Source of the DNA: a virus
Reading direction: 5' to 3' (one strand)
Virus record (IMG/VR): IMGVR_UViG_3300008450_000423
Coordinates: 1-24,705 of that record
DNA: 24,705 nucleotides
A model generated the notes under the pieces. It saw only the letters and a program-made list of their open reading frames with translations, made no database searches and had not been told where the DNA came from. Both the position numbers and the translations under genes were made by a program. Position 1 is the first letter of the stretch. Each line of letters starts with the position of its first letter. Shown here piece by piece: positions 3,170 to 22,072 of the stretch.

Positions 3170-3193
3170 TAATAAATAGTTTTTTAACTATTT
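3170..3193 (-). promoter_or_regulatory. Intergenic hairpin with the ACTATTTATTA motif before the 333-aa gene
   Basis: On the coding strand ACTATTTATTA (3180-3170) ends 4 bases before the ATG at 3165. It overlaps a perfect 8-bp inverted repeat AAATAGTT-AAAA-AACTATTT (3193-3174) with a 4-base loop, starting in the stop codon of the upstream gene. The same 11-mer is present at 18691-18701 and 22030-22040. It could be a phage promoter -10 element, an mRNA processing hairpin or a translation signal; the sequence alone does not decide. Confidence 0.5.
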
Positions 3194-5373
3194 TAAGTAC
3201 GACAAGAAATAGAGTATTGTATTCTTACCGATATTGTTAATACTTCATCTTTATAAACTTCAACACCCCCAACAACGTCAGATTCAATACTTACTGTATT
3301 TGTTGATAAATTAATGTCATATGATTTAATATCAGGAATGGTGTTGAGTAAAGTTTCAATCACTGTTTTGAATGACGTAACTGTAGGTGAACTGGATAAA
3401 GAAGTTGTTGTAAAAAATGTTCCTGAATAAACTGTACCCACTAGCTCAATGTCACAATTGAATATTGCGTAGTTTAACTTACAATCCTCATGACCGCTTA
3501 TTAGTGATAAGTAACCGTCATTCAACATTTTTGTAAAATTGAATATCGTTGACGGTAGATATGTTTTACTACCAAAAGTATACACAAATTTTGAACTAGC
3601 TTGTTGCAAAGGATTACAAGTAATGTCTATTGATTTTGTTGTTTGACAATTATTAGTGCCACTAACAGTTAACACATATGTTCCAGCAGTCAATCCTGTA
3701 ATAAATGTACCTGACTGTCCATTAACATTATCACTCCAAGTAAGGTTAAATGGCCCCGTACTATCATTAAGTAATACACTAATTGTACCTCCACTACCAT
3801 TAATACAATTTGTACCGTAAAGAGCAAATTGATATGGTGCTAAATAATCAACTGTGGTTATTTTTGTTTGTGAACATCCTGATAAATTTGTAACTGTAAC
3901 ATCATACGTGTCAGCCGGTAAGTTATTAAAAGTATATGTTGTTGATGTTGTCGGATATGAACTTGCTCCATTTGATAAAGAATAAGTATAAAATGTTGAG
4001 CCTGTGTAGTTTGGTGAAACATTTATATTAATCGAGCCATCATTTAACCCACAATAAGTACTATTACCTGTTATCGAAAAATCAAATGAAGTGTCATTTG
4101 ACACTACCAAAGTATTTGTATAAGTACATGCACTACTACTATCATTTATAGTCAGAACATAAGTACCTGACTCAAGTTGGTTAAATGTATTAGTTTGTAG
4201 TGTTGATGTGTTAGTTGTTGTCACACCACTATTATTAGATAAAGAATAAATAAATGGTGGTGTCCCTCCTTGTAAAAGGATATTAATAGAACCACTATTG
4301 TATGAACATTGTGAATTAGTAATTGTTTCAGAAACTAATGTAAAACTTTTCGGTACAAAAACATCCGCGGTTGTAGAAAAACTACAAAGTGAAACATCAG
4401 TTACTGTAAGTGTATAACTTCCAGCGCCAATACTGTTAAATGTGACCGATGAACTATATGATGTAATGGAATCACCGTTACTTAACAAATAAAAATATGG
4501 AGCGGTCCCACCAGTAATATTAAATGTAATTGTACCATTTGAATTAAAGCAAGTCGGGGATGTTAGTGTGTAGGAAATTAGAGAAATGGGTGTTGCCCCG
4601 CTTACATAAGTTACCTTATTTAAAATACAATTATTTGCATCTGTAACTGTAACATTGTATGACCCTTCAGTTAATCCCGTCACATAAGTACTTCCCGTTC
4701 CCCCAACTGCGGGTGACCACTGATAATAATAAGGTGGAGTACCAGTCAAACCTGTTATGTAAATTTGACCACTTGACTGTGAACATGCTGGATTATCAAT
4801 AACATAAAATCCAAAATCTAAAATATTAGGGTTTTCATGAATAATAACTGTTTCAGTTTCACAAGGACAATTTCCTTCACCTGTAATTTCAGCATAATAC
4901 ATTCCTTCACCTAAATTTACAAACGATGCAATTTCCGAAATAGAAGTTGCGGAAGAGTAAAACACATAATCTTTAAACAGATTAACTGTTGCCCCTTGAT
5001 ATGAACCCCCACCAGTATTTATTACACCATTAGTTACACCAGTTACTATTACTTCAAGATACGAATTGTTTGTACCACATCCTTCCAAAGAATAACTGTT
5101 AATATAAGCAGTACTAGCTGAAACAATATTAAAATAAATTGGACCTATAACTTCATTAATTGGAATTGTTGAAGCAGTTATATTAAAACCATATGTGCCA
5201 GCGGTTAATCCTGTTACAGAATAAGAACTCGTATAAAAAGTTGCAGGTGGTAAAACATTGTTTACCCATCCTATAGTATATGGACTTGAACCAATTAGAT
5301 TAATTGTCGCCGCACCTAATGAACTATTTGTACAATCACCCGTTAAACTTATCGTATATAAAGTATCTGCCAT
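3193..5373 (-). CDS. SprB-like repeat adhesin, putative tail fiber protein
   Basis: 726 aa with an ATG start 2 bases after the upstream stop. Seven copies of a roughly 80-residue beta-sandwich repeat can be counted from the closing signature LxxGxYxVTVTDxxxC: near residues 53-68 (no Cys), 151-169, 228-248, 309-328, 394-416, 479-500 and 555-576. The units open with CxxxNGSIxxxxxGGTPPYxYxxS-type strings (for example GGTAPYFYLLS). This matches SprB repeats, known from the gliding-motility surface adhesin SprB of Flavobacterium and from many Bacteroidota surface proteins. Residues ~593-726 form a non-repetitive C-terminal domain with no match I recognise. There is no signal peptide, sorting domain or membrane segment, so it is not itself secreted like the bacterial adhesins. 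It sits in a phage tail cluster, so I infer an elongated fiber or spike whose repeats were shared with host surface proteins. Confidence 0.8.
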   Translation of the reverse strand: MADTLYTISLTGDCTNSSLGAATINLIGSSPYTIGWVNNVLPPATFYTSSYSVTGLTAGTYGFNITASTIPINEVIGPIYFNIVSASTAYINSYSLEGCGTNNSYLEVIVTGVTNGVINTGGGSYQGATVNLFKDYVFYSSATSISEIASFVNLGEGMYYAEITGEGNCPCETETVIIHENPNILDFGFYVIDNPACSQSSGQIYITGLTGTPPYYYQWSPAVGGTGSTYVTGLTEGSYNVTVTDANNCILNKVTYVSGATPISLISYTLTSPTCFNSNGTITFNITGGTAPYFYLLSNGDSITSYSSSVTFNSIGAGSYTLTVTDVSLCSFSTTADVFVPKSFTLVSETITNSQCSYNSGSINILLQGGTPPFIYSLSNNSGVTTTNTSTLQTNTFNQLESGTYVLTINDSSSACTYTNTLVVSNDTSFDFSITGNSTYCGLNDGSININVSPNYTGSTFYTYSLSNGASSYPTTSTTYTFNNLPADTYDVTVTNLSGCSQTKITTVDYLAPYQFALYGTNCINGSGGTISVLLNDSTGPFNLTWSDNVNGQSGTFITGLTAGTYVLTVSGTNNCQTTKSIDITCNPLQQASSKFVYTFGSKTYLPSTIFNFTKMLNDGYLSLISGHEDCKLNYAIFNCDIELVGTVYSGTFFTTTSLSSSPTVTSFKTVIETLLNTIPDIKSYDINLSTNTVSIESDVVGGVEVYKDEVLTISVRIQYSISCRT

Positions 5374-5375
5374 TC

Positions 5376-8342
5376 TTATCCTTGAATTTGTATATCATAT
5401 AAAACGCTTATTTCAGAAATAACAACATCATCAAAACCACAAACCACTGAAACAACTTGTAGTTGTTCGGTGTTACTATCATAAATAATCTGAACACCAG
5501 CTTCAGTATTTATTCCACTGTTTGCAAAATAAATTAAACCTTGGTTTATTGTATTAGTCCATTGTGTTTCAGTAGGTAAAATGGATGTATAATAATAAGT
5601 AGGTCCATCATTATATTCAAAAGTGAAAACTTCACCAGTATTAATATGTGTTAAATCAAAACTAAAACCGTATTTGGCAGAAACAGTTGTAAACCCATTT
5701 GTAAATCCTTGAGAAGATGCCAAATTTTGAGCGGCCTGTCCAAGTCCGTCACCTATATTTTGAATAGATGGTACATCAATGTTAAATGTAAATGAGTCAC
5801 AAGCGTTTGTTTGTAAAGTTCCCGTAGTAACTGGTCCAACCACCTCTTGTAAAACTAATTGACATCCTCTTTGTCTTCTATAAATAAACTTTTGTCTATG
5901 GAAAATAGAATTTTCAAATTTTGTACCCGTATTCCATATTGTCGTTGCCGGTACAAATTGTTCAATAAGTTTAATCCAAAAATCACCTAATCCTGTTATG
6001 TAGTTAATTAAATTTTGGTAACTAAAGTTATCATTTGATAAACCAGTATCTTGGTACATTGTTAGATATTTCCAAAACATAGATTGTAATGTCGGATATC
6101 CACTTGTTTTACCATCTGATGAAAATTGTCTATTTCTAACATTAATCATGTTAAACCAAAACGTTTTATAAAACTCATAGAATGTTTTGTTTTGTGGTTG
6201 TGGATTTATAAAAGTCCAATCAGTACCGCCTGTTTGTGGATAAGGTGATGATAATCCAGTAAATGGTATTGGGTAATTTTGAGTATTAGAAACATACCAA
6301 ACATCATATACCAATCCTTGAGCAGGATTTAAAAATATTTCAGTATTTTTTACATTCAATAACAATTTATCCGTTGGGATAGTATAGTAAGCATTGAATA
6401 GGTTATCTGTGTTTTTTCTTAAATCATTTGTATCGTTGGTCCAACTTTTTTTGTTATCCTGAACTTTTTTCAAGTTGAATCCTAAATCCATATAAGGGAA
6501 ATTTCTAAACCTGTCCAAAAACTTTGACCCATAAGTAAAGGGTTCTAATGAAGTTTGGATATCAATATTTTGACCTGTAAATACACTTGTTGTAAAATCA
6601 ATTTGTTCGGGACTTCTATGTTGGGTTGTTGATTCAATCCACCCTTCACCTTTCTGAAAATAAAAACTTGGTCTACTTGTTGTTCCATTTGTAAATTGAG
6701 GATTAGCAGGATAACCTTCATCATCTATAGGATAATCCGCCAATGTAGTATTCGTTGGGATTAGTTGACTAGTTTGTGTATATGCACTATAAACAACACC
6801 CTGAAAACTATACGTGTTATTTTCATCTAATGTAGTAAATTCAGGAACGTATGTACCTCCCGAAATTTGGGAATATAAATTATCGAATTTTTGAATGTTT
6901 ATTTTAGAATCTGCTAAATAGACATTTTCATTAAACTCAATTAAAGCATCAGGTGCACCAATAAAATTTAATAAGAATTCAATCGCCTTTCTTGTTCCTT
7001 TTGAACGATATAGATAAGATGAATTTAGAATTAAATTTCTAAAATATTGATTATTTAAATCTTGTCTTGTTTGTGATGTCGAATAAGCAGGAAAAGCGTT
7101 TTCTGTAGTACCATAAACAGATTCTAAATAATCTGAATTTGCAATCGGTGAAATTCTAATTGACCATCCTAAAGTTTCAGCTAAATTTGTAACTAAACCT
7201 GATGGAATATCATTACCAATAGTGTAATTTACAGAATTAGCATACTGAATACCATCAATATATTTTTTTGTTTCGTCAAAACTTCTACCATAAATTTTCA
7301 AAGTTTTATCTACTTTTTCATCTTGAGTATCAAATTCTTTTAATGCATTTGTGGTATAAAATCTTGATATAACATTTGTTTCAGAATTGTCATAATCAGT
7401 ACCAATTACTTGTAATTCTGCAATATAATTTTCATACCCAATTGATAAAATATCTAAATTCCAAGTACCGTCTAATGGCCATGTAATTGAACGAATCGTA
7501 TCATAGATGTAACCATCATCCGATTCAGTCGGGATTTGAAATTGATAAGTATAAACTGGAACTGAATATCTATTCAATAACGCCTCTTCAATTTCACCTA
7601 ACTCAAGATTAAAAACTTCATTTACAATTGTATCATTAGGCCTTACTAAAAAGTTTTGATTATAATTAGTCAGTCCACTGAAAGGATTACCTTTAACATA
7701 AATTGTTAAATCAGTATTAAAGTTTGGTGTGGTGTTAATAGAAATTAATTCATAACTACCACCCCCTGTCAAAACTAAAGAATAACTTGGGAACTTACTT
7801 GTTAAGTTTCTGTACTTTGAAACAGGGAACCCTAAACTATTAATATAAACAGTTGCGTTCGTTCTGTAGTCAATGTTAAAAGGATTTCTAATGACTTGCC
7901 AAGGAATCGTTAAAACTGTTTCGTCTTGGTTCGCATCGTAACTTATATTATTAGCAGTTATCGCACTTGTTGCACCACTTGTATAATTTCTTACATCTAA
8001 CGCAGCTGGAAAATAATTTAAAATATTATTTATCGCAGATTCTAATCTTTTGGTTAATGAACCGTATGATACAAAACTTGTTAAATCCGTTTCATCAAAG
8101 TTAGGATAAAGACGAAAGTTATTATTATAAACTGAAGCAGCAAATTCTGGATTTAAATTTAAATCATTATTATTAAACAATGATGAAAAATTACCAGTTT
8201 CAAAGTTTCTAGTAACCTTTTCAGTAATAGCTGTACTAAATTCAAAAACACTATATGTAAGTCCACCACCATCAGTTATTTGTAAACCAACGTAGTTATC
8301 AGAAAAGTTCCTATTTTGTGGAGGACATTTATAATTAGCCAT
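5376..8342 (-). CDS. Tail protein I-like (P2 gpI / T4 gp7-type) baseplate protein
   Basis: 988 aa. The ATG overlaps the upstream stop by one base (TAATG), implying translational coupling. Residues ~345-475 carry the pattern of phage tail protein I: a helical segment (KTLKIYGRSFDETKKYIDGI), an IPSGLVTNLAETLGW stretch near residue 390, then YFRNLILNSSYLYRSKGTRK (residues ~430-450) continuing as AIEFLLNFIGAP. The R-KGT-Ai-ll-G core is the hallmark of that family. In contractile tails this protein pairs with the gp6/J-type protein in the wedge core bundle, fitting the gp6-like and gp25-like genes upstream. It is much longer than P2 gpI; the N-terminal ~340 residues and the C-terminal half are beta-rich additions, and the last ~150 residues look like a separate domain with conserved-looking Cys. 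Identification as the T4 gp7 counterpart is inference. Confidence 0.65.
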   Translation of the reverse strand: MANYKCPPQNRNFSDNYVGLQITDGGGLTYSVFEFSTAITEKVTRNFETGNFSSLFNNNDLNLNPEFAASVYNNNFRLYPNFDETDLTSFVSYGSLTKRLESAINNILNYFPAALDVRNYTSGATSAITANNISYDANQDETVLTIPWQVIRNPFNIDYRTNATVYINSLGFPVSKYRNLTSKFPSYSLVLTGGGSYELISINTTPNFNTDLTIYVKGNPFSGLTNYNQNFLVRPNDTIVNEVFNLELGEIEEALLNRYSVPVYTYQFQIPTESDDGYIYDTIRSITWPLDGTWNLDILSIGYENYIAELQVIGTDYDNSETNVISRFYTTNALKEFDTQDEKVDKTLKIYGRSFDETKKYIDGIQYANSVNYTIGNDIPSGLVTNLAETLGWSIRISPIANSDYLESVYGTTENAFPAYSTSQTRQDLNNQYFRNLILNSSYLYRSKGTRKAIEFLLNFIGAPDALIEFNENVYLADSKINIQKFDNLYSQISGGTYVPEFTTLDENNTYSFQGVVYSAYTQTSQLIPTNTTLADYPIDDEGYPANPQFTNGTTSRPSFYFQKGEGWIESTTQHRSPEQIDFTTSVFTGQNIDIQTSLEPFTYGSKFLDRFRNFPYMDLGFNLKKVQDNKKSWTNDTNDLRKNTDNLFNAYYTIPTDKLLLNVKNTEIFLNPAQGLVYDVWYVSNTQNYPIPFTGLSSPYPQTGGTDWTFINPQPQNKTFYEFYKTFWFNMINVRNRQFSSDGKTSGYPTLQSMFWKYLTMYQDTGLSNDNFSYQNLINYITGLGDFWIKLIEQFVPATTIWNTGTKFENSIFHRQKFIYRRQRGCQLVLQEVVGPVTTGTLQTNACDSFTFNIDVPSIQNIGDGLGQAAQNLASSQGFTNGFTTVSAKYGFSFDLTHINTGEVFTFEYNDGPTYYYTSILPTETQWTNTINQGLIYFANSGINTEAGVQIIYDSNTEQLQVVSVVCGFDDVVISEISVLYDIQIQG

Positions 8343-9247
8343 TAAGCAGTTATATTGTCAAAGTTTTTAGTTGTATCAATATTAGAACCTCTATCTTGTC
8401 TAACTTCATAAAGTAATTCATTAAACTGACTTCTAATTTCATACAAGTTGTATTGTTTGTAAATGTTGTTGTTAGTATCGTAAATGGTATAAATTCCATC
8501 TTCAATAGATTTAGTTTGATTACCGTACAACGCAATTGCAAGTGTTGAAATATCTTGTTCAACAATTTCAATTTCTATCATGATAGGGTCAAAAAAAGTA
8601 TTTGTTAAAATAATGTTTTGTCCTGCAGAACCAATGTATGGGGTAGCATTTGGTTTGTTTGATGGTGATGAGCTAGGTGAAACTGTACAAAATAATAAGT
8701 TTGTTTCAGCATCAGTATAAATCCATCTTTGAGCTTTATCTGAAGTATTGTTTGTATTTGCAACAACAGCTTCACAGAAAAAACTTGATGTTATTATTCT
8801 AAAGAAATTTGTATTTTTTGTTCCATCATTATTTAAATACTCCACTCGATATCCAACAAGTCCTTGTGTCACAAATCTATTTAAGAATTCTTGTGGTACA
8901 GTTGATAAGTCAATAATAATTCCTTTTACATTAGGTAAAGATTGTAAAACTCCACAATCATAAATTTGTGTTCTAATTTGTACAGGTCTAATTAATAAAT
9001 TGTAAATTCCAATATTGTTGAATTCGCTAGCCGGTAACTTCAAATTATATAAACCACCTAAAATTTCATTGGTCTGGCCTCCAATTGCAGGATTACTAAA
9101 ATAAGGTTGTAAAAGTTCTTGAGCGTTTAATTTTTTTAAAACAAAATCGTTAGTTAAATCCCTTGATGGGGTATAATTCATTATTATTTCTGTGTCCGCC
9201 GGACTCACATCCGACAACCTTACCGTTCCGTAATTACCTGTAGCCAT
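8342..9247 (-). CDS. Putative virion (baseplate/tail) protein, unknown
   Basis: 301 aa with an ATG start. This is one of the few genes here with a Shine-Dalgarno-like AAGG about 6 bases upstream. No family is recognised. The protein looks soluble, mixed alpha/beta with many Asn and Thr. There is a short Ser/Pro linker (VSPSSSPSNKP) around residues 190-200 and a C-terminal segment with a charged helical look (YEIRSQFNELLYEVRQDRG). There is no signal peptide or membrane segment. The stop overlaps the start of the gpI-like gene by one base, so the two are probably made together and may act as partners in the baseplate periphery. The structural role is inferred only from position and composition. 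Confidence 0.65.
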   Translation of the reverse strand: MATGNYGTVRLSDVSPADTEIIMNYTPSRDLTNDFVLKKLNAQELLQPYFSNPAIGGQTNEILGGLYNLKLPASEFNNIGIYNLLIRPVQIRTQIYDCGVLQSLPNVKGIIIDLSTVPQEFLNRFVTQGLVGYRVEYLNNDGTKNTNFFRIITSSFFCEAVVANTNNTSDKAQRWIYTDAETNLLFCTVSPSSSPSNKPNATPYIGSAGQNIILTNTFFDPIMIEIEIVEQDISTLAIALYGNQTKSIEDGIYTIYDTNNNIYKQYNLYEIRSQFNELLYEVRQDRGSNIDTTKNFDNITA

Positions 9248-9262
9248 TTTTTACCTTATTAG

Positions 9263-9280
9263 TATAAATATTAATTTATA
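9263..9280 (-). promoter_or_regulatory. Intergenic inverted repeat containing a TATTTAT core
   Basis: On the coding strand TATAAAT-TAAT-ATTTATA forms a perfect 7-bp inverted repeat with a 4-base loop, in the 37-base gap between the 361-aa and 301-aa genes. Its 3' arm repeats the TATTTAT core seen before several other genes in the window. No T-run follows, so a terminator is unlikely. The candidate role is promoter or processing site. Confidence 0.4.
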
Positions 9281-9284
9281 TTTT

Positions 9285-10370
9285 TTATGGATTGTTTTCT
9301 ATATTGAAAAAGTTATATCCATAGTTTACCAAATCATTCATCGTTGAAACTTCACCGATTCTTCTAAAATTTTCCAAAGCAGAATTTTTACCTCTTTCAA
9401 CAAACACACTTGAAAACAATTGAGGTTGGTCAATCACATTCATTAAAACTTCATTTTTTGTGATTGCACTTTGTACTAACATGTCTGATGTTAATCCCGA
9501 TGAACCAACAATAAAAATAGATATACCACTTGGGTAATCAATATAATCGGTATTATTAATAGTATACCCTGTATATTGTGAAGTAATATAATTCACAACT
9601 CCGTAACCACCACCCGCTAAATTAACAGTTTGCCCTACCTGATACTGATTAGAACCATACATCTGTAAATCAGTTAATCTTGATATAGTTGAGCCAGTTA
9701 TAAAATAAGGTACCTCACCATAAAAAGAACCTATCTGATAAGCAATTTGATTATATGAATCAGCGGTGTAAATAAAATTATAGGTTTGAGGACTTGCACT
9801 CCAACTTCCAGTTGTATTAGCAAAGGTTACAGTACCAAATGGATTGGTATTTTCTACTAAAGAATATGGAATTACAACTGTTTTATTAATTGTAACAATA
9901 CCCCATATATTTTCTTGTGTTAAAGTTATTGTATAACTAGTCGGGTTTGGTAATGGTCCTGCGTAAGTATGATTTATAAAATCAGGATAGAATGAATTAA
10001 CTGTTTCAGATGTACCGTCACCCCAATTAATAGTATATGTTGAGTCCGCTAAATAAACTGTTCCTTCACTTGAATTATTAAATAAACTTACAGTATATGG
10101 ACTTTCCGTTGATGATGTAAATGAAAAGTTTGCGGATATTACTTGTTGTGTTATGTTACCATCAAATCCATCATAATACCCAATGTCTTGATACTTTTGT
10201 TTAAGTAATATTGGAAAAGTTATCCCTGTAAACAGTGAAGAACCGCTAGGTCCACCTTGTAACATACTTGTTAATCCTGAATAAATCCCAAAGGTATATC
10301 CATCAACAGTTTCACTAACAATGTCAGTATTTAAAAATTCGGGTGATATTTTAATTTTGTAAACTTCCAT
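9285..10370 (-). CDS. PKD-like domain virion protein
   Basis: 361 aa with an ATG start one base after the stop of the 251-aa gene. Residues ~78-170 resemble a PKD (Ig-like) domain: a strand pair followed by INWGDGTSETVN (residues ~113-124), then HTYAG and SYTITLTQENIWG, matching the family's WGDGT...HTY...Y.V.L pattern. PKD domains mediate protein-protein or carbohydrate contacts in surface proteins and are known in phage tail proteins. The C-terminal ~190 residues hold further beta structure (QYQVGQTVNLAGGGYGVV) and end in a charged stretch (ERGKNSALENFRRIGEV) leading to a YGYNFFNI end, which could be a docking segment. It is one of a run of abutting structural genes, so I infer a baseplate or tail accessory protein. 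The PKD call is fairly sure, the exact role is not. Confidence 0.7.
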   Translation of the reverse strand: MEVYKIKISPEFLNTDIVSETVDGYTFGIYSGLTSMLQGGPSGSSLFTGITFPILLKQKYQDIGYYDGFDGNITQQVISANFSFTSSTESPYTVSLFNNSSEGTVYLADSTYTINWGDGTSETVNSFYPDFINHTYAGPLPNPTSYTITLTQENIWGIVTINKTVVIPYSLVENTNPFGTVTFANTTGSWSASPQTYNFIYTADSYNQIAYQIGSFYGEVPYFITGSTISRLTDLQMYGSNQYQVGQTVNLAGGGYGVVNYITSQYTGYTINNTDYIDYPSGISIFIVGSSGLTSDMLVQSAITKNEVLMNVIDQPQLFSSVFVERGKNSALENFRRIGEVSTMNDLVNYGYNFFNIENNP

Positions 10371-10371
10371 T

Positions 10372-12919: not shown

Positions 12920-15900
12920 TTACTTCTTCTGTATTAACATATTTTATGATAAATCTATCTAATGCACTTGCACCTTTCTTCAAACCAAAATAGAAGTGAT
13001 TGGGAGCTCCAACCAAAAATTGTGGATTAAAGTTTTGAGTTGGGATTGTTTCTATAGGTACTCCATCGGTATCAAAATTGATAAGTGTTGACCTATAGTT
13101 AGCTGCCAGGTTACCATCTACTTGGAAGTATCTACTTGCAACATTTATTCTATCTAATTTCTGATATTTGTATGTAAAGAAAGATGTACTAAATTGTCCT
13201 GACGAATCCGGATAATTAGTTACCCAATTATTATTTTGTGAACCAAATATGGTTCCATAATCCATAGGTTGACCTGTTTCATCATTATTCATTTTAATAA
13301 GTTTCCATAAATAAAACGGAACATTTTGTGGATAAACAGGTATTTCAGTAAAATTATATTGTTGTGGCGTATCAATAGTCGCTTGAGGATTCCATATAGT
13401 TCTCCTTGGTGTTATATAATCACGGTCTTGGGTATTACCAGTTAACAATAATCCAAAAAATGGAAAATTATTTTCATCACCCAAAATTACGGGTTGATAT
13501 GCAGAATCCGCAGGTTGGGCGTAATTTGAAACGTTGAATGGTGAAATTCCAAATTCAGAATTAATTGATATGATTTGAGCGTAATCAGCATCAACCATAG
13601 CCGGTAATGTACTAGTACCGTCATTTTCCCATCTTCTATTTTTGAAAAATCCTCTAACAGTAGGGTCGTCAGTACCTTCATTTACACCAGGTGATGTGGG
13701 AAATAAAAATTGTAAAAAATTAGGATTAACTAATCTACTTAAAATAAATAAATTTAAAATTTCACTAACATTATTATAACTAGTTGGTTTAATTTTTGAA
13801 ACTATATAGCCATCGTAATCATCGTTATTAACAAGTTCTTGAATAAAATATGATTTTGGTCCTAAATCTAAAATTGTAGTTGGTGATTGCAAAAATTTAT
13901 AATTACCAAAACCAGTATTACTACCAATAATAGATGTATTATCTTTACCTATAAAACCTTCTGTCGTTGACCAAGGAGAACTTCTGTAATAAAAATTATT
14001 ACTTGTTTCATGAAAATATATTGTTTCTTTACAAAATATACTGTACGGTCTTTGAGTTCCTGTTGTAAATACTCGTTTATTATTGAAAGGATATGCATAT
14101 AAAGTCCCATTAATCCACTGATTTGAAAACGAGTGTGAAAATACATTAAAACAAACTGCGTTGTTAACTTTAATTCTTTGTGACCATTCTATAATTGATT
14201 TAGTGTCTTGTCCAATAGTTAAAAATAATCTTGATACTAAATTGTAACAACCTGTACCATAATTAAAATATTGTTCCCTACCTTGAGGGTTCATTATTTC
14301 ATTACAATTAGGTTTGATTGTTGGTACACCATCAATCAATTCATAACATTGTAACATGACAGCCTTTTCACATTCAGATAATGATTCCGAAACTTCAGCA
14401 TAAGGAATAAATTGTGTTGTACTATCATTAATTGAGAAATTTTGTTGGTTAACATTAGTAAGTTCTGAGGGGTCACCACTATCAGTTAAAGTATAAACTG
14501 CAAAAACGGGATTTTGATGGACCATAAAACTATTTGACCCATACAATGATTCACTTGTTGATGATGGTAATCTATCAGTTCTCATAACAATTTTTGAATT
14601 ATCTGACATTACAATTTGGTCATATGTTTGACCATTATATCCACCATTTTGGTATGAACCTGTTGTTCTATATGTCGGTGAAAAAAATCTCATTCGTCCT
14701 AAAGCATTTCCATATGAACCGTAACGTAATCCCAAAGTACCTTCAACTTCACAAGATTCACCAGCGTTCCAAGCGTTATATGTCCATTGGTAAAAAGCTC
14801 CCCCTTCAAGATATTGATTGGTTCTATATGCATCATATTCAATATTATCATAATCCTCAGATGTGTTTCCAGGATTACCATTAGCGGTTAAAACACTATT
14901 AGTCGCTTGTTCTCCCGGTACCCCTCCATTTAAAGTAATTACAGTATTAACTGGACAACTACCACCAGGTCCTCCACAACCATTGTTTTCAGTTAATAAC
15001 ACAAATCCCATCCTGTTATTATAGGATTTTCGTAACCATCCAATGCTTGTATCAAGAGCACTTGCGGTATATCCTGAATTAACAAAACCAGGTGGTACGT
15101 TATTTGAACTAGGTCCAAAAGTTAAAATATCAAGTGAAGAATAATAATACGGTAATGTTGTGTTAAATTGTTTATATCTACCAAGAGACCAAACATTTTG
15201 ATTTAATTGTGGTAAATATGAAAACGCATAACTATTAAAAAATATTCTACCACCCCATTGGTCTGTTGAATTATTATTAGCAATTTGATTGTGTCTTGTA
15301 CAAACTTTGGTTGAGGATGTGTCGGGTTGTAAGGGTATGTTCATTTTATAATAACCTTCAACATACATAGTTGTTGATTCATATGGAATATTTGGTAACG
15401 TACCGTCGTTATTTGGTTTTAAAATATTAGCATAAGTAGGTTTTAACGCCGAGGTAATATCAATTCTTTGTTTTACTCTAGGTGAATGTACGTCAACCCC
15501 TCTCATGAGTATCAATATGATATAATTGTCCATATTAGGAACAACTTGTTCTATTGTAGAATATCCATAATCACTTTTTCTGAATCTTCCGTCATAACAA
15601 TTCATTTCAGTATCTGTAGAAAATTCGTACAATTGCATTTTATGTCTATAAACTTGATTCAGTGTTGAGTATTCATAACCACCAAACGTATTTTCATATT
15701 CTATTTGAAGTTGATTAAGTAATATTAACTGTTCTAAAGTTACAGTATTTAAATCAATACCTAATTCCGCAGCAACTGCCGCAGTATCAAATTCTGGTTC
15801 AATTGGACCAAAAGTTTGATTAGTCACAAAACTTTTATATTCACCAATTGTTAATCCTGTTATAATTTGAAAATATTCAATATCCGCAGGAAAACTACTT

Positions 15901-18680
15901 GTTTTTTTAAGTTCAGTAAACCCTGTTAAATTGTAAGTAGTATATAAAGGTTGCGCATTATTAGGATTTGTCCATTTATACGTTACGTTATTTAAATTAT
16001 TTGTTTTTCCACTTGTGAATATGTTATCGTTTTGAGTATTATAATAATTTAAATCTGTTGACAAATTTTTATCTTGGAATGATATAATTGTACCAGCCGC
16101 TGGTATTTCAGTTTGTCTATCCAAAACAAGTATTTGGAAATTATCCATATGATATACTGTACTTGGGTTATTAAAATCAGGCTCCAAAGTAACCCTCATT
16201 CTTGTACTTCCATAAAAATATCTTGGTTTTGTTATAGTATTAGACGCACCCCCCTCATCATTCTCTGGTTCAAAGTATCTTCCTTTAGACCACCACGAAT
16301 TCAAATATTCAGAATAAGGTATTTGTGAAGAAAAATGCCAATTTGGAAAAGTGTAACTATCTCCAGCGTTACTTTCAACTGTTATGTCTCCAACACTAAC
16401 AATAGGACATCTGTTTTGCGGATACCCATTAATTGAATCGGCTAAGTTACCGGCATATAATCCTGCCAAAAACTGCTGTACATCATCAACATTTCTATAA
16501 AGTTCAAAATCCGTACTGTTAATTAAAACAGAACTTTGGGTTACTGTTGTAAGTTGAGCTTGTCCTAAACTTTCACCAATAGAATCACCCAATTTACAGT
16601 TACATCTTTCACATCCATCTTCAGTATATAATAAAAGTGGTAATCCAAGATTTTTAAATGGGTTTTCATTAACATATTGTGATAAATCTATCACTTCAGG
16701 ACATGGTAAATTAGGTCTATTAAAAATACCTCTTACCCAATTTCTAAAGTTACACAATCCAATAATAATTAATTGTATAAACGTTAAAACTAATAATATA
16801 ACAGGTAACAAAACAACCCAAAAATACCCCATAATATGCGCAAGAATCATTAAGAGTAATGCAACATATCTAAAAACTTCAAAAATTATATTATAAATTA
16901 TGTAAGTAAAATTAACTCTAAAAAAAGCATCGTTAGTTGGGAATTTATTATATTGCCCAGTGCATTTGTCGTCTAAAATATTTTTAATGCCTGTAGTATT
17001 CCACGGTCTTCTTTCGGAAACAAACCTATCCATCAACTGACTAACAGTATAAACTTTATTATACTGAAGTTTCATAAATGTATCTTCACAATTTATAGCC
17101 TCCTGAACATTAGCATAATCAGTCCAATCTAAACTAAATGCGTAAGATTGTTCTAATAAAAATCTATCTTTGTCAATTTTAAGAAAGTTGATTGTTGCAT
17201 CTACTCCATCATCAATTCTTGTATAAACAAAATATAAATTTGTTAAATCTTCTGAATAAATGTTTTGTGAAAGATACTGTGTACCATCAGAATAAAATAT
17301 TTGAAAATCTTGAATATTTTCGGTATTAACCAATCGATAAACAAAATTTGGTGATTGTGACAAATACTGTGAAAGAAATATATAAGTTCCATTACTATCA
17401 GGTGAATTAGAAGGAATTGAAACTTCAACAGGCTGTCCAATTTGTTCATTAAAATTATATCCCAAATAAGGGTCACCTGAGTCACCCCATCCATATTCTT
17501 TCACATTAGGAACTAAAAAATAAGCCCTCTTTGTTGATTCTGAAAGTTCAGGACCTTGTTCCCATTTTACTTTAAATCGATATTTCCCTTTTGTTGGAAT
17601 ACCGACTTCAGGGTTATTACTTGTTTGTTGGTTTCCTTCTTCATCAGTATAAACATAGTCAAGATTCATTGGTACTTCTAGTACCCATGTACCATTTTCA
17701 TCAATAACTTTACCACCATTTTCTAATTCGACGGTTTCCAAAATAGGTAATCCGCTTGAATCTGTTCTATAACTTTGTCTTATCGCCAAAATTTGTCCCG
17801 GTCCTGTCGATAAATCACACAAGTCACCCATTGTTTTAGGTATCTTACATTTACCGTAAACATCATTATACCCTAATTTAGTTTCATCCGTAGCCGAAAT
17901 TAACGAACCCATAAACACCGCAGTTGGTCTTATGGAAATCTGAGCTTCAGCTGTTAAGTCAAAGTCATTCCTTGATATGTAATAGTTACAAGTTTCTTGT
18001 TCCCCATAAAATGGAGCAACTTGTATTGTTTTACTTATTGTAACAATCTGTGGTAATTCACTATAATTTTCTGAAAACTTAAATTGAGCACCGTTAACTT
18101 GAGCTTCTGTTGCCCTACCTATTCTTATCAAGTCAGCAGGTGTAAAAGAAAACTCACCAATATCCGATAAGTCAACTTGCATAAATAAAGTATGTTGACC
18201 AGGTGGTACACCTAATATCATAAAGTCACCTGAACCATTGGTACTAACAACATACTTAAAATATTTGTCGTATACCTGAATTACAGATTTGTTTGTTAAA
18301 ACATCATTTCTATCAGGAAAAGTCCCAACAGGAATGTGTCCTGTGTAAGAGGGTGTGTAAGGTAATAGATTGTATTTGTAACCATCTTCATTAACATCAT
18401 TGTAAGTTTTATAAGGATATAAAGTACTGATTATTGTATCATTAATATCAGCATCGTCTAAAGCAATAAAAATAGAAACTTTAGCATTCGGAAGTCCAAA
18501 ACCATTATTACAAAAAACTCTACCAACTACAACTCCGTAGTCAGCACATGCTCTTGTATAAACATCGTTTGGGTTAATGTTTAAAGACAATAACTCAAGC
18601 GTATCAAAGTTTTGTTCAAGTTTAACCTGAATAACTTTATCAATCCCTAACTCCGTTCTGATTCTATAAGATGAAGACAT
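12912..18680 (-). CDS. Giant baseplate-associated virion protein with carboxypeptidase-regulatory-like domain and membrane hairpin
   Basis: 1922 aa with an ATG start. Residues ~46-175 look like a carboxypeptidase-regulatory-like beta domain: GVVVGRVFCNNGFGLPNAKV opens it and GSGDFMILGVPPGQHTLF closes it, with a long insertion between. Residues ~588-643 are strongly hydrophobic and read as two membrane helices separated by a short turn (around HIMGYFW). A Cys-containing segment follows, PCPEV near 660 and CERCNC at ~688-694, which may bind metal or form disulfides. The rest (~700-1922) is beta-rich, Tyr/Asn/Ser-heavy virion-type sequence. The gene directly follows the gp6-like gene, where T4 has gp7, but it is nearly twice the size of T4 gp7, and the gpI/gp7 signature is instead in the 988-aa protein downstream. 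I infer a large wedge or baseplate hub/periphery protein. The membrane segments suggest possible contact with a host membrane. Confidence 0.7.
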   Translation of the reverse strand: MSSSYRIRTELGIDKVIQVKLEQNFDTLELLSLNINPNDVYTRACADYGVVVGRVFCNNGFGLPNAKVSIFIALDDADINDTIISTLYPYKTYNDVNEDGYKYNLLPYTPSYTGHIPVGTFPDRNDVLTNKSVIQVYDKYFKYVVSTNGSGDFMILGVPPGQHTLFMQVDLSDIGEFSFTPADLIRIGRATEAQVNGAQFKFSENYSELPQIVTISKTIQVAPFYGEQETCNYYISRNDFDLTAEAQISIRPTAVFMGSLISATDETKLGYNDVYGKCKIPKTMGDLCDLSTGPGQILAIRQSYRTDSSGLPILETVELENGGKVIDENGTWVLEVPMNLDYVYTDEEGNQQTSNNPEVGIPTKGKYRFKVKWEQGPELSESTKRAYFLVPNVKEYGWGDSGDPYLGYNFNEQIGQPVEVSIPSNSPDSNGTYIFLSQYLSQSPNFVYRLVNTENIQDFQIFYSDGTQYLSQNIYSEDLTNLYFVYTRIDDGVDATINFLKIDKDRFLLEQSYAFSLDWTDYANVQEAINCEDTFMKLQYNKVYTVSQLMDRFVSERRPWNTTGIKNILDDKCTGQYNKFPTNDAFFRVNFTYIIYNIIFEVFRYVALLLMILAHIMGYFWVVLLPVILLVLTFIQLIIIGLCNFRNWVRGIFNRPNLPCPEVIDLSQYVNENPFKNLGLPLLLYTEDGCERCNCKLGDSIGESLGQAQLTTVTQSSVLINSTDFELYRNVDDVQQFLAGLYAGNLADSINGYPQNRCPIVSVGDITVESNAGDSYTFPNWHFSSQIPYSEYLNSWWSKGRYFEPENDEGGASNTITKPRYFYGSTRMRVTLEPDFNNPSTVYHMDNFQILVLDRQTEIPAAGTIISFQDKNLSTDLNYYNTQNDNIFTSGKTNNLNNVTYKWTNPNNAQPLYTTYNLTGFTELKKTSSFPADIEYFQIITGLTIGEYKSFVTNQTFGPIEPEFDTAAVAAELGIDLNTVTLEQLILLNQLQIEYENTFGGYEYSTLNQVYRHKMQLYEFSTDTEMNCYDGRFRKSDYGYSTIEQVVPNMDNYIILILMRGVDVHSPRVKQRIDITSALKPTYANILKPNNDGTLPNIPYESTTMYVEGYYKMNIPLQPDTSSTKVCTRHNQIANNNSTDQWGGRIFFNSYAFSYLPQLNQNVWSLGRYKQFNTTLPYYYSSLDILTFGPSSNNVPPGFVNSGYTASALDTSIGWLRKSYNNRMGFVLLTENNGCGGPGGSCPVNTVITLNGGVPGEQATNSVLTANGNPGNTSEDYDNIEYDAYRTNQYLEGGAFYQWTYNAWNAGESCEVEGTLGLRYGSYGNALGRMRFFSPTYRTTGSYQNGGYNGQTYDQIVMSDNSKIVMRTDRLPSSTSESLYGSNSFMVHQNPVFAVYTLTDSGDPSELTNVNQQNFSINDSTTQFIPYAEVSESLSECEKAVMLQCYELIDGVPTIKPNCNEIMNPQGREQYFNYGTGCYNLVSRLFLTIGQDTKSIIEWSQRIKVNNAVCFNVFSHSFSNQWINGTLYAYPFNNKRVFTTGTQRPYSIFCKETIYFHETSNNFYYRSSPWSTTEGFIGKDNTSIIGSNTGFGNYKFLQSPTTILDLGPKSYFIQELVNNDDYDGYIVSKIKPTSYNNVSEILNLFILSRLVNPNFLQFLFPTSPGVNEGTDDPTVRGFFKNRRWENDGTSTLPAMVDADYAQIISINSEFGISPFNVSNYAQPADSAYQPVILGDENNFPFFGLLLTGNTQDRDYITPRRTIWNPQATIDTPQQYNFTEIPVYPQNVPFYLWKLIKMNNDETGQPMDYGTIFGSQNNNWVTNYPDSSGQFSTSFFTYKYQKLDRINVASRYFQVDGNLAANYRSTLINFDTDGVPIETIPTQNFNPQFLVGAPNHFYFGLKKGASALDRFIIKYVNTEEVIE

Positions 18681-18709
18681 GTGTGTTTTTTAATAAATAG
18701 TTTACACAC
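18681..18709 (-). promoter_or_regulatory. ACTATTTATTA motif inside an inverted repeat before the giant gene
   Basis: In the 51-base gap after the gp6-like gene, the coding strand carries GTGTGT (18709-18704) and ACACAC (18686-18681) as a 6-bp inverted repeat ending right at the ATG (18680). The exact 11-mer ACTATTTATTA (18701-18691) lies in the loop. The arrangement could be a promoter within an operator, or an mRNA hairpin controlling translation of the giant gene. Confidence 0.5.
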
Positions 18710-18731
18710 GATTTTCAAAAAATAAATGATG

Positions 18732-20603
18732 TTAACTAAAATTGACTGTAGTTAAGTTTTTGACCGACACTCTAATGTCTTTATCGGCAAACCTAACATT
18801 GAATATTTGGTTTGGTTGAGCATATATTGTATCTTCAATTACTTGTATTTCTTTAGTCGTAGTATTTGAATATGACTGTGAAACTTGTGAAGATGAGTAT
18901 AAACCACCAACTCTGTTATAAACATTAATAGATGACACGGTAATCACCCCTTGTTCACTTTGAATTAAAGTTCTTATTGGTGAAATGTATAGATTTTGCC
19001 CCATCCCTCTATTACTTGGACTCATATAAGCATTAATCTTTGAAATAATGTTCGATATAACAACTCCTTGGTTTTGTGAACTATCTAATACAACATATAC
19101 ATCAAATGCTAAATCAATAACGTTAGCCGATTCAATATATATGTAGTCGTTCATCATTCTATAATTTGACAAATATGTTGCTAAATTACTTTTTAAAGTA
19201 TTAGAAACAGTTTCTGTTAACGCTCCTGAAGAATCATAAGAAAGAATTTGAACATTAATTTTATTATCAGTTTCAGTAATTGCAACTTTTGCAGGCGCTC
19301 CAAACTTTGAAGGCATTTTTCTAATTATTGCTTCATAGTCATTTACAGTAACCGCTCTGTTTTGAGCTGCAAAGTTAAATGAAATCAAGTTTCTTATTTC
19401 TTCAATACTTGGGTAGTTAGCCCCACCAATAGCCGCTGTAACGTTAGTACAAGCTAAAGAATTAATAACCGAAGTTACTTTATTTTGGTCACTACCATAA
19501 ACATTAAAGTTAACCGTACCTAACTGGTTAATTGCTCCAGGTCCCAAGTTACTAACCAAACCACCTCCAACTCTATATTGAACAAATAACGTTGAATTAG
19601 CCTTTAATGTAGAACCAAGTGAATAGTTGTTTTGATATTTTGAAATATCCAATGGAACACCATTAACTGTAAAATCCCTCAATAAATCATCCGATGAAGT
19701 ATTTCCACCACCAAAAGTTAATTTTAAAAATCCTTGTGGAGTATATTCAGTGATAAATCTTTGATTGGTTTTATAATATTTCCCAACTTTTATTCCCGTA
19801 GCATCTTTTGGTTTAGTTGGGTCTTCAATAAAAATTCTATCTTGAGCCAAAGCATCAACCTCAAACCATTTATTAGATAAATTTGTCATATCCATAAATT
19901 CTTGAGCCGATGGAACATTATTATAATTTGTTCCGTCTTTAAGTATAACACCTGTAACACCTAATACATTTTTTTCAGGTAAGAAAAAATCAAAAAATGG
20001 TCTTGTTTCAGGAGTATTAATAACTCTTCTGAAAACTTTTGTAATACCATTAATTACAGGTTCTCTTTTTGTAATAGTATAGTTAATAAGGATATTGTTA
20101 GCGTCAAAATTTGGAATAACAGTTCTATTAACAACCCCTTCGTCATTAAAATCTGCACCAAAATCAATATCATATAAAGTTTCAAAAGTTTGCCCTGCAC
20201 CAATCACTTGACTACCCTTTGCTAAAACACCAAAGTATGCCGAATCAGGTGGCTGTAATGTACCAACATTAGATTGAATTGCCGGAGCGTCACCAAAAAC
20301 AGGAACAGTAATTGATAAATCAACAAGAGCAATTGACGGTCTCATCCCTGGTACTTTCAAACCATATGTTCTTGCAATGTTATAAAGTGAACTTGTTTGT
20401 TGTGCGTATTGTAATACAGTTTCTTGTAAACTTCTATCAATGTGATAATTTAAATTGTCTGTTACCGCAGCGTTTAAATCCAATAAAACTGAAAAAACCG
20501 AAGCGTCATTAACATTCTGAATCAAATCAGGATAATAAGTTCTAACGTAATTTATAAGTTCTAACCTAATTGATTGAAAATCTCTTGTAGTATATGATAT
20601 CAT
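18732..20603 (-). CDS. Baseplate wedge protein, gp6 / baseplate J-like
   Basis: 623 aa, close to the 660 aa of T4 gp6. The N-terminus has the typical J/gp6 opening: DFQSIRLELINYVRTYYPDL, then DASVFSVLLDLNAAVTDNLN and a helix with YHIDRSLQETVL (residues ~35-70). The C-terminal half has the family hallmark IEEIRNLISFNFAAQNRAVT followed by VNDYEAIIRKMP (residues ~400-430). In contractile tails two copies of this protein with one gp7/gpI-type protein form the wedge core bundle and join neighbouring wedges into the ring around the hub. The gene starts 4 bases after the stop of the gp25-like gene, matching the conserved gpW-gpJ order of contractile systems. There is no Shine-Dalgarno sequence; only ACAAG precedes the ATG. 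Confidence 0.9.
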   Translation of the reverse strand: MISYTTRDFQSIRLELINYVRTYYPDLIQNVNDASVFSVLLDLNAAVTDNLNYHIDRSLQETVLQYAQQTSSLYNIARTYGLKVPGMRPSIALVDLSITVPVFGDAPAIQSNVGTLQPPDSAYFGVLAKGSQVIGAGQTFETLYDIDFGADFNDEGVVNRTVIPNFDANNILINYTITKREPVINGITKVFRRVINTPETRPFFDFFLPEKNVLGVTGVILKDGTNYNNVPSAQEFMDMTNLSNKWFEVDALAQDRIFIEDPTKPKDATGIKVGKYYKTNQRFITEYTPQGFLKLTFGGGNTSSDDLLRDFTVNGVPLDISKYQNNYSLGSTLKANSTLFVQYRVGGGLVSNLGPGAINQLGTVNFNVYGSDQNKVTSVINSLACTNVTAAIGGANYPSIEEIRNLISFNFAAQNRAVTVNDYEAIIRKMPSKFGAPAKVAITETDNKINVQILSYDSSGALTETVSNTLKSNLATYLSNYRMMNDYIYIESANVIDLAFDVYVVLDSSQNQGVVISNIISKINAYMSPSNRGMGQNLYISPIRTLIQSEQGVITVSSINVYNRVGGLYSSSQVSQSYSNTTTKEIQVIEDTIYAQPNQIFNVRFADKDIRVSVKNLTTVNFS

Positions 20604-20607
20604 CTTG

Positions 20608-21060
20608 TTATATATTAATAATTACAAAGCTAGATGTATTAAATACATTATTTGTAATATTATAATTTATTCTTATTTTTGCAGTATATTCTGATTCAGG
20701 TGTCCCTGGAAATACAAATTCATTCGGGTCTTGTGTTGTAACTTGTAATGAATCATTAACTAAATCAGGTGCTTCAATTTTTACAGATGTTACAGTCAGA
20801 TTAGGAATATAAGTTTCAACCGACTCTTTAATCTCACTTTCAATTTGGTCAAATGTTGGACTGTCCAAAGGTTCAAAAATATATTCATAAAGACGAGTAC
20901 CAAAATTTGGCATAAAGTATCTACTCCCTTTTCTTGTTAATAATAAGTGAATAAGATTACTTCTTACTTCTTCTTCAGTTGTATCTGTTAAATCTAAAAA
21001 TTTTCCATCAAAAGAATCCCTGAAAGGAAAAGTAATACCATATGTAACTCCATTTGCCAT
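20608..21060 (-). CDS. Baseplate wedge protein, gp25 / gpW-like
   Basis: 150 aa against 132 aa for T4 gp25. The N-terminus GITFPFRDSFDGKFLDLTDT is followed by EEEVRSNLIHLLLTRKGSRY (residues ~29-48) and the family signature FGTRLYEYIFEPLD (residues ~53-66), where the E-P pair is the conserved mark of gp25-like proteins. The C-terminal part is a short beta region (LTVTSVKIE, YTAKIRINYNI). In T4, P2 and related injection systems this protein links the wedge core bundle to the sheath/tube junction and primes sheath assembly. The ATG follows a TATTTAT-containing spacer, and the stop is 4 bases before the gp6-like start, so the two are co-translated. Confidence 0.9.
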   Translation of the reverse strand: MANGVTYGITFPFRDSFDGKFLDLTDTTEEEVRSNLIHLLLTRKGSRYFMPNFGTRLYEYIFEPLDSPTFDQIESEIKESVETYIPNLTVTSVKIEAPDLVNDSLQVTTQDPNEFVFPGTPESEYTAKIRINYNITNNVFNTSSFVIINI

Positions 21061-21065
21061 ATTAC

Positions 21066-21089
21066 ATAAATATTGAACATATCAAATTT
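21066..21089 (-). promoter_or_regulatory. TATTTAT core and imperfect hairpin before the gp25-like gene
   Basis: On the coding strand AAATTTGA-TATGT-TCAATATTT (21089-21068) can fold as an 8-bp stem with one bulged base and a 5-base loop, continuing into TATTTAT that ends 5 bases before the ATG at 21060. It starts within the stop codon of the small gene upstream. It resembles the motif/hairpin arrangement before several other genes of the window, although the core is CAATATTTATG rather than the exact 11-mer. Confidence 0.35.
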
Positions 21090-21276
21090 AAATCAATACA
21101 ACAATTTTACCTTCAGTAAGTTTTGGTTTGTTATTTTCAAACTCAATATTAACAAACTCTTGACTGAAAATATATTCCTGAATAAAAGAATTGATTGGGT
21201 AAAAATTAATACAATCTAAATTTGTGTGATTTCTGTTTAAATACTTATAAAAACCAATTTCATAATCCCATATCAT
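21088..21276 (-). CDS. Small hypothetical protein between the oxidoreductase and gp25-like genes
   Basis: 62 aa if started at the ATG at 21276 (MIWDYEIGFYKYLN...), overlapping the end of the flavodoxin-like gene by 17 bases in another frame. The frame is also open upstream to 21390 (100 aa), but that extension lies wholly over conserved-looking oxidoreductase sequence, so the inner start is preferred. The protein is acidic to neutral with a Phe/Tyr/Ile-rich middle (NFYPINSFIQEYIFSQEF) and ends in KLTEGKIVVLI. No family is recognised. It fills what would otherwise be a 200-base gap in a densely packed region and ends just before the gp25-like gene, which supports it being real. It could be a small baseplate-related protein, but nothing in the sequence proves this. 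Confidence 0.5.
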   Translation of the reverse strand: MIWDYEIGFYKYLNRNHTNLDCINFYPINSFIQEYIFSQEFVNIEFENNKPKLTEGKIVVLI

Positions 21277-22027
21277 CAATGAATTTTTTGTGGGATTTTT
21301 TGTAAGAAGATTTGCTTTCGTCGTAAACATCTGTCGTATATTGCCAATTCCAATATAATTTCTTGTTAGGTTTAAATCCATAGAACTCATGAACTTTCAT
21401 TTGAGTATCAGTTACTTCTTCCCCATTCCAGTTTTGTCCAACACAAATAAAACCTGTTTCAACATTTTCAACAATATTTTTTTCACCTAAAGTGTTATGT
21501 CTGTTTTCAATCCAAGTTAATCTTTCGATTAAATTTTGGTAATACATGTTTGCCTGTCCCCATCTTACTGAACTAAAAAATACAACAGCATCTGATTCAA
21601 ATAATTCTTTTGATACCTTCCAAAGTTCATCTGATTTATTGTTCAAACTAGCCCAACATCTATGATAACCTGATGGATTTTTTTTGTCATCTTTTAATAG
21701 TGATTTAATAACACCGCAACTATTACCTTCTTCTCTTGATACATTACCTTCACAAGGAAAAATTTTAAGTTCAGATACATCCATAAAAACAGATTTATTA
21801 CCAAGCTCTTCATTAAGATACATCGCAATAACTTTTGATTTAGGAACATCTATTTGTTTTGGGTCCCAATTAAATCTATTAGAACAACTAAGTAATAAAA
21901 CTTTATCTTTCTTTTTAAGAATATCTAACGTCTCTTTTAGTTTTTTCGCACCACCTTCTTGAACCATGTTCTCAGAAAGCATCATTTTCCTAATCTTATC
22001 TATCTCTTCTTGTATTATATTAGACAT
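21260..22027 (-). CDS. Flavodoxin-fold NAD(P)H-dependent FMN reductase-like protein
   Basis: 255 aa with an ATG start. Residues ~1-27 form a charged helix (IIQEEIDKIRKMMLSENMVQ), a kind of N-terminal tag often seen on phage proteins. The core then follows a flavodoxin-like fold: strand VLLLSCSNR (residues ~43-51) with a Ser-rich phosphate-binding loop, a second strand with IAMYLNEEL, a Cys-containing loop (FPCEGNVSREEGNSCG), strand DAVVFFSSVRWGQANMYYQN (residues ~145-165, typical of the FMN-reductase family's substrate/flavin loop), and strand ETGFICVGQNWNG. The expected activity is FMN-dependent electron transfer; substrate and partner are unknown. The gene follows nrdA but is separated from it by a terminator and a candidate promoter. 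A link to ribonucleotide reductase activation or to redox control in the infected cell is only a suggestion. NrdI is not indicated, since the nrdA is class Ia-like. Confidence 0.7.
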   Translation of the reverse strand: MSNIIQEEIDKIRKMMLSENMVQEGGAKKLKETLDILKKKDKVLLLSCSNRFNWDPKQIDVPKSKVIAMYLNEELGNKSVFMDVSELKIFPCEGNVSREEGNSCGVIKSLLKDDKKNPSGYHRCWASLNNKSDELWKVSKELFESDAVVFFSSVRWGQANMYYQNLIERLTWIENRHNTLGEKNIVENVETGFICVGQNWNGEEVTDTQMKVHEFYGFKPNKKLYWNWQYTTDVYDESKSSYKKSHKKFIDDMGL

Positions 22028-22029
22028 GT

Positions 22030-22040
22030 TAATAAATAGT
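22030..22040 (-). promoter_or_regulatory. Candidate phage promoter motif ACTATTTATTA
   Basis: The exact 11-mer shared with 3170-3180 and 18691-18701 lies just downstream of the nrdA terminator and ends 2 bases before the ATG of the flavodoxin-like gene. A position immediately after a terminator is what a promoter restarting transcription would occupy. If it is a -10 element, the mRNA would be leaderless or nearly so. It does not match the Bacteroidota consensus TAnnTTTG well, so a phage-specific factor is possible. Confidence 0.5.
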
Positions 22041-22045
22041 CATAA

Positions 22046-22072
22046 AATTAAAAACCCCGACCTAGCTCGGGG
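22046..22072 (-). terminator. Intrinsic terminator after nrdA
   Basis: On the coding strand CCCCGA-GCTAGG-TCGGGG is a perfect 6-bp GC-rich stem with a 6-base loop, followed at once by TTTTTAATTTT. It lies 16 bases past the nrdA stop codon and is the only GC-rich hairpin with a T-run between genes in this window. It should end the nrdB-nrdA transcript and separate it from the structural genes. Confidence 0.9.

Follow-up and report, generated by a model that had tools for sequence, protein, structure and literature searches.

The IMG/VR record IMGVR_UViG_3300008450_000423 was analyzed over its whole length of 24,705 bases (hereafter, the window), with attention to a short element, TATTTAT, that stands in the gaps before several of its genes. 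The window is a fragment of a tailed phage, and called genes make up 97.5% of its length. Besides two baseplate wedge genes (gp25-like and gp6-like), it encodes the large subunit of ribonucleotide reductase (RNR; nrdA) and a protein with SprB repeats. Given the SprB-repeat, baseplate, and RNR genes, a Bacteroidota host is likely. The window matched no phage at the DNA level, and a tblastn search of phages with its protein of 1922 amino acids (aa) returned no match.

A preliminary description of this DNA had reported an identical 11-mer, ACTATTTATTA, before three genes and had proposed it as a promoter or translation signal. Three exact copies are indeed present, all on the minus strand (22040-22030, 18701-18691, and 3180-3170), with the reported gaps of 2, 10, and 4 bases to the ATG, and no exact copy lies in any gene of the window; the three copies with one mismatch are all within genes. 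The estimate of well under one copy expected by chance also held, as 100 dinucleotide shuffles of the window gave a mean of 0.09 and none contained three or more. Because the 11-mer was chosen after the sequence had been read, this expectation is not a clean p-value.

The heptamer TATTTAT, which all three copies contain, occurs 16 times in the whole window against 21.5 expected, that is, without over-representation. Five of the 16 copies are in gaps, and all five face a start codon at distances from 4 to 16 bases (Table 1). Ranked among heptamers in the gaps of the window, TATTTAT (four sites) came second to the overlapping ATTTATT (five sites). Two of the five cores had been overlooked in the preliminary description: the one before gene 8342-9247, and the one before the gp25-like gene, which was missed because its flanks differ. 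The terminator that had been placed between nrdA and one copy of the 11-mer was recovered as a hairpin preceding the core. Near this site, the open frames 21088-21390 and 21260-22027 overlap by about 130 bases, and the start of the smaller frame is uncertain.

Table 1. Features of the window and of one related record (G002)
Feature	Position	Strand	Remarks
Terminator-like hairpin behind nrdA, T-run after	22055..22072	-	7-bp stem, -12.6 kcal/mol on a 52-base stretch; just upstream of core
TATTTAT core	22032..22038	-	4 bases before ATG of gene 21260-22027; within 11-mer 22030-22040
A/T box	21085..21089	-	5/5 A/T, at family offset -17 to -13 from first base of core
TATTTAT core	21066..21072	-	5 bases before ATG of gp25-like gene
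gp25-like baseplate wedge gene	20608..21060	-	phrog_261 5e-19, phrog_43 6e-14; served by core at 21066-21072
gp6-like baseplate wedge gene	18732..20603	-	phrog_219 6e-19; 4 bases behind gp25-like gene; without a core of its own
A/T box position	18712..18716	-	4/5 A/T
TATTTAT core	18693..18699	-	12 bases before ATG of 1922-aa gene (start 18680); within 11-mer 18691-18701
A/T box	9283..9287	-	5/5 A/T
TATTTAT core	9264..9270	-	16 bases before ATG of gene 8342-9247
A/T box	3191..3195	-	5/5 A/T
TATTTAT core	3172..3178	-	6 bases before ATG of gene 2164-3165; within 11-mer 3170-3180
RpoD-like sigma	G002:51667-51873 (L129:1078-1878)	-	~40% identity to bacterial RpoD; gp55-like sigma also present

TATTTAT before the genes of related phages

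Conservation was counted over distinct upstream sequences of orthologous genes, misregistered rows included. TATTTAT was present in 27 of 28 upstream sequences of the gp25-like gene (at distance 5 in 25 of them), 24 of 24 of the 1922-aa gene, 16 of 21 of gene 8342-9247, 5 of 5 of gene 21260-22027, and 3 of 5 of gene 2164-3165; the corresponding counts of the 11-mer were 0, 4, 0, 1, and 1. Control genes of the same window had the core in 0 of 9 (nrdA), 0 of 33 (gp6-like), 0 of 16 (gene 10370), 0 of 7 (gene 5373), and 1 of 6 (gene 2154) ortholog upstreams. The conserved unit is the TATTTAT core, and the 11-mer is an accidental extension of it. As a unit the 11-mer, which the preliminary description had taken for the signal, was rejected: of 13 related records, the near-identical G001 has three copies, nine others have a single copy, and the remaining three have none, and at orthologs the core persists while its flanks change. 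That the three identical 11-mers arose by chance in AT-rich sequence agrees with the absence of over-representation of the core across the window, and it is largely true of the outer four bases. For the core itself chance is refuted, its probability being negligible in view of the 0.09 exact copies expected, the recurrence of the core in nine related records, and its conservation at orthologous sites.

The wider scan for TATTTAT suggested in the preliminary description bore out the enrichment. In all nine related IMG/VR records TATTTAT was the first-ranked heptamer in gaps before genes, with observed versus expected counts of 12 versus 0.33 (G001), 58 versus 2.6 (G002), 46 versus 1.65 (G003), 24 versus 0.48 (G006), 19 versus 0.44 (G011), 85 versus 3.4 (G014), 81 versus 3.3 (G015), 95 versus 4.0 (G016), and 36 versus 1.2 (G019). 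In the cultured relative, Flavobacterium phage immuto, it was the second heptamer (25 versus 1.4 expected), after ATATTTA. Expressed as a share of gaps, the core was found in 421 of 979 in eight family records and 24 of 93 in immuto; among the controls, low-GC bacterial loci had it in 9 of 190 gaps and Tenacibaculum phage pT24 in 0 of 37. The bacterial control consisted of 24 of 80 loci with GC <0.40 (by title Bacteroidota, Ignavibacteria, Marinimicrobia, and others) and may not include the host group. Applied to T4, the same pipeline recovered the late core TATAAATA facing genes (8 versus 0.18), 15-41 bases before starts. The portions tested were 150,000 of 160,366 bases for immuto, 50,000 of 234,670 for pT24, 49,001 of 168,903 for T4, and 50,000 of 190,001 for the distant phage Mel-JY01.

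The element has a direction and a preferred place. After deduplication, TATTTAT lay 3-20 bases before the start of 173 genes, ATAAATA of 25, and TATAAAT of 20. Counted over nine records with related genes not removed, TATTTAT preceded 113 of 270 head-to-head starts; at co-directional starts it was present in 102 of 401 with a gap of at least 60 bases, 70 of 216 with 30-59, 91 of 187 with 15-29, and 30 of 146 with 5-14, and it was nearly missing between abutting genes (7 of 660 starts with a gap <5). The counts of ATAAATA in the same six classes, in the same order, were 23, 5, 5, 5, 7, and 4. Gene starts came from a simple purpose-made caller, which misplaced at least the start of window gene 21260-22027 and that of its ortholog.

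The core favors one class of genes. Across seven records, not deduplicated, TATTTAT stood before 47 of 60 late (structural and packaging) genes versus 4 of 39 replication and nucleotide genes (p 9e-12), with class labels assigned by hand from the immuto and T4 annotation, unlabelled kinds dropped, and G014 left out; the gp55-like gene described below, with a gap <10 in each row, entered neither class count. TATTTAT before many late genes is most likely a switch that turns them on late in infection. Gaps that contain a terminator-like site also held the core more often (52 of 90) than gaps that do not (122 of 336; p 3e-4; G014 left out), and the core lay downstream of that site in 51 of the 52, as is partly expected from geometry. 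Among the copies listed, CCCCCTACCCCC with a T-run after it occurs shortly upstream of TATTTAT or a TATTTAT-like core three times in G002 and twice each in G003 and G016.

Record G014 (L178; 268,739 bases) contains two full T4-like sets of head genes, one immuto-like and the other like that of the window's family: terminase at 25078 and 228247, gp20 at 26674 and 230046, gp21 at 31270 and 233341, and capsid at 33213 and 236064. It is probably two phages joined in one record, and once the duplicate head genes had been noticed it was excluded from three analyses: gene classes, terminators, and the second test of distances. A different promoter-like arrangement was seen in immuto (L212-L214) ahead of genes of unknown function. 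This sequence, TTTAGGTA, is found at 26 places, most of the 20 listed sitting at 60-77 kb; in it GTTG stands about 25 bases upstream of TATATTTAGGTA, and it is perhaps the early promoter of immuto.

Distances to start codons and an upstream A/T box

The distances from core to start codon were bimodal. In 207 deduplicated genes, without G014, 85 fell at 4-7 bases, 13 at 8-11, 39 at 12-15, and 32 at 16-19, whereas twenty control heptamers of the same composition gave 180, 146, 147, and 130 in these classes (chi-square p 2e-9; dip p 4e-4). In immuto the distances are mostly longer. A second regularity concerns five consecutive A/T bases at -17 to -13 relative to the core, which are present in 110 of the 207 genes versus about 43 of 207 at other offsets. 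The offset of this A/T box from the core is the same in near, far, and very far sites. At far-class sites A makes up 84-89% at offsets 11-13, and near-class sites have the A of their ATG at this same place. The near-mode start codons look real, as judged by the variation after them: in 71 ortholog pairs, codons 2-12 showed 187, 103, and 321 differences at codon positions 1, 2, and 3, respectively. In 89 of 138 cases these starts have no other in-frame Met within 30 codons.

From this spacing we infer that an A some 11-13 bases beyond the first T of the core would serve as the transcription start, and that the A/T box, a second and weaker element 13-17 bases ahead of the core, would be part of the promoter. 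For cores separated from the start codon by 4-6 bases, this A would fall within or beside the AUG, and the simplest account predicts leaderless or nearly leaderless messages at near sites. For cores separated from it by 12-19 bases, the message would have a short, A-rich leader; on the same account, far-site leaders are predicted to measure about 8-12 bases, and very short ones would be avoided.

These results also bear on the translation signal that the preliminary description had offered beside a promoter, that is, an A/U-rich site acting at the RNA level near start codons in hosts without Shine-Dalgarno pairing. The core does lie 4-19 bases ahead of start codons, and flavobacteria reportedly do not depend on Shine-Dalgarno pairing (PMC9723704). 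Such a signal is nevertheless improbable, because the core is nearly missing at abutting genes, the distances form two modes, the A/T box is anchored to the core and not to the start codon, late genes are favored, the core tends to follow terminators, and the gaps of bacterial control loci hold few copies. Only the promoter half of the proposal therefore stood, backed by the enrichment, the late genes, the terminators, and the A/T box.

Candidate sigma factors and the proposed late promoter

The phage sigma factor whose search the preliminary description had recommended was found in relatives; the 24.7 kb fragment that forms the window is without one. T4 gp55 belongs to phrog_234 (late sigma), and the profile of this family found a protein of 245-248 aa in 4 of the 13 records picked by their baseplate gene; the remaining records are mostly shorter fragments. 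The gp55-like protein is encoded by at least 597 stretches, and immuto has a homolog (25% identity, 3e-6). Its AF2 model has the sigma-domain-2 fold, aligning with domain 2 of Escherichia coli sigmaE (Z 8.7, rmsd 3.0 over 94) and with T4 gp55 (7d7c_F; Z 6.8, rmsd 3.7 over 102 residues), and carries an extra C-terminal helical domain. Sigma factors headed the Foldseek list for this model, none at E <= 0.001, and the gp55-like profile found no match by sequence in the PDB. A search of five records with eight T4 proteins returned no match. G002 also encodes, at 18300-18854 on the minus strand, a second protein of 185 aa that is weakly similar to the immuto gp55-like protein (5e-4). A T7-type polymerase was found in 0 of 12 records by a search whose control gave no signal either, and a gp45-type clamp (PF02916) in 0 of 8, a weak test as T4 was not among its controls.

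The phages also offer a second possible reader. TATTTAT could be a promoter directed along the genes, either late or middle, that is read by an RpoD-like sigma in place of the gp55-like protein. In G002 this sigma has 266 aa with clear Pfam regions (1.2, 2, and 4; Table 1), and it exceeded the Pfam cut-off in 6 of 13 and 5 of 9 records in two record sets. We regard this as unlikely, since Sigma70_r2 had no match in complete immuto, where the core and the gp55-like protein are both present, or in the 208 kb G018, and since G003 and G006, both fragments, have TATTTAT as their top heptamer without an RpoD-like sigma. Because immuto combines the core and the gp55-like protein with no RpoD-like match, the gp55-like protein is our first choice as reader. 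If the element is a promoter, we favor this protein by about three to one over other readers.

We put at about 0.7 the probability that TATTTAT serves this jumbo-phage family as the -10 element of a late promoter directed along the genes, with the gp55-like sigma as its likely reader. In such a promoter, the gp55-like sigma would read TATTTAT while bound to host RNA polymerase.

Several results weigh against this reading. When G014 is included, the dip between the two distance modes is weaker (110, 25, 43, and 36 in the four classes; p 0.04). The major capsid gene had the exact core in 0 of 5 cases with a gap of at least 10 bases; the gene preceding it usually carries TATTTAT. The matches to phrog_234 are weak (E 1e-4 to 1e-3 per record, 0.003-0.005 in a library scan), T4 gp55 alone found no homolog by phmmer, and the AF2 model is of moderate quality (pLDDT 70, pTM 0.41). 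Our own gp55-like profile matched 10 of 10 records, a partly circular count, as six had been chosen for it and seven had contributed profile rows. An RpoD-like sigma is present in most family records, and Mel-JY01 has the core in 2 of 20 gaps despite a weak gp55-like homolog. The late gaps of T4 hold TATTTAT too (6 versus 0.28 expected; 5 of 22 gaps), and the core read along the genes agrees with the T4 late core at 5 of 7 positions, whereas full agreement is found on the opposite strand (ATAAATA).

The last two points would suit a T4-type late promoter of the classical kind that lies on the opposite strand, fires away from the gene, and produces antisense RNA. The preliminary description had correctly likened the reverse complement, which faces away from the genes, to the T4 late element and had held that the element was not simply T4-type. 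An opposite-strand promoter is very improbable: the distance of the core is fixed relative to the gene ahead, the late genes would be left without a promoter, and in 51 of 52 gaps the site lies just behind a terminator, into which the transcripts would run immediately. The core recovered from T4 by the same pipeline, moreover, faces the genes.

For the late promoter along the genes, a broader proposal can be made, whose chances we consider evenly balanced. A large T4-related family of jumbo phages, probably of Bacteroidota, may have evolved a late promoter of its own, with an A/T box at about -29 and TATTTAT at about -12, together with a gp55-like sigma that gained a C-terminal domain; the messages of about two fifths of its core-bearing genes would be leaderless, unlike those of T4 and the presumed hosts. 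The late timing and the identity of the sigma are what we infer from gene classes and co-occurrence. With this element, promoters could be mapped, and the map tested, in hundreds of uncultured phage contigs, and it would represent a new -10 consensus paired with a diverged sigma factor. The virus may favor messages whose leaders are missing or very short, in hosts that do not depend on Shine-Dalgarno pairing, and how the ribosomes of such hosts initiate on leaderless messages could be tested with a cultured relative.

Comparison with known promoters

No TATTTAT promoter for such phages is described in the open-licence PMC papers searched. Other jumbo phages, AR9 and phiKZ, have short phage-specific late elements that are read by phage multisubunit RNA polymerases (PMC5312081). 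The present family resembles them in its short late element and differs in that an RNA polymerase beta domain was found in 0 of 12 records.

In the presumed host group, the sigma-A promoter has TAnnTTTG at -7 (PMC9723704, PMC7366714). TATTTAT is likewise a -10-like element, but it is without TTTG, and in the gaps of immuto TAnnTTTG occurs in 0 of 93 versus 24 of 93 for TATTTAT; gap frequencies also differ between the phage and the bacterial loci. In leaderless bacterial genes, a TA-like -10 box precedes the start by about 12 bases (PMC3160421), which is the geometry seen here, as the first T of the core is at -12 when the distance is 5. Leaderless messages are reported to be scarce in Bacteroidota, with 5.5% in F. 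psychrophilum and about 3.7% of leaders <10 bases in B. thetaiotaomicron (PMC9723704, PMC7366714). Unlike in these hosts, 85 of the 207 core-bearing phage genes fall in the 4-7 class and would, by their spacing, be leaderless or nearly so.

Close parallels are with T4, whose late promoter has TATAAATA at -13 to -6, recognized by gp55 together with gp33 and the gp45 clamp (PMC1524935, PMC2988020). Both have a single short A/T element roughly one turn upstream of the start (a predicted start in the family), an A/T-rich stretch downstream, and a position before structural genes, and the family phages encode a gp55-like sigma. They differ in the consensus in gene direction (TATAAAT before 20 deduplicated genes versus TATTTAT before 173), in the upstream A/T box, for which the available portion of PMC2988020 gives no conserved counterpart in T4, in the distance to the ATG, often 4-6 bases here against 15-41 in the T4 control, and in the extra C-terminal helical domain of the gp55-like protein. 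Because of the 5 of 7 match along the genes and the identity with the T4 core on the other strand, the element was not filed as a T4 late promoter. In the T4-like phage Aeh1, a diverged late element, CTAAATA, is paired with a diverged gp55 (PMC1524935); its bases differ from those of TATTTAT, and no leaderless arrangement is mentioned for it in the available portion of that paper. By analogy, TATTTAT would work like the T4 late promoter but with its own consensus, as CTAAATA does in Aeh1.

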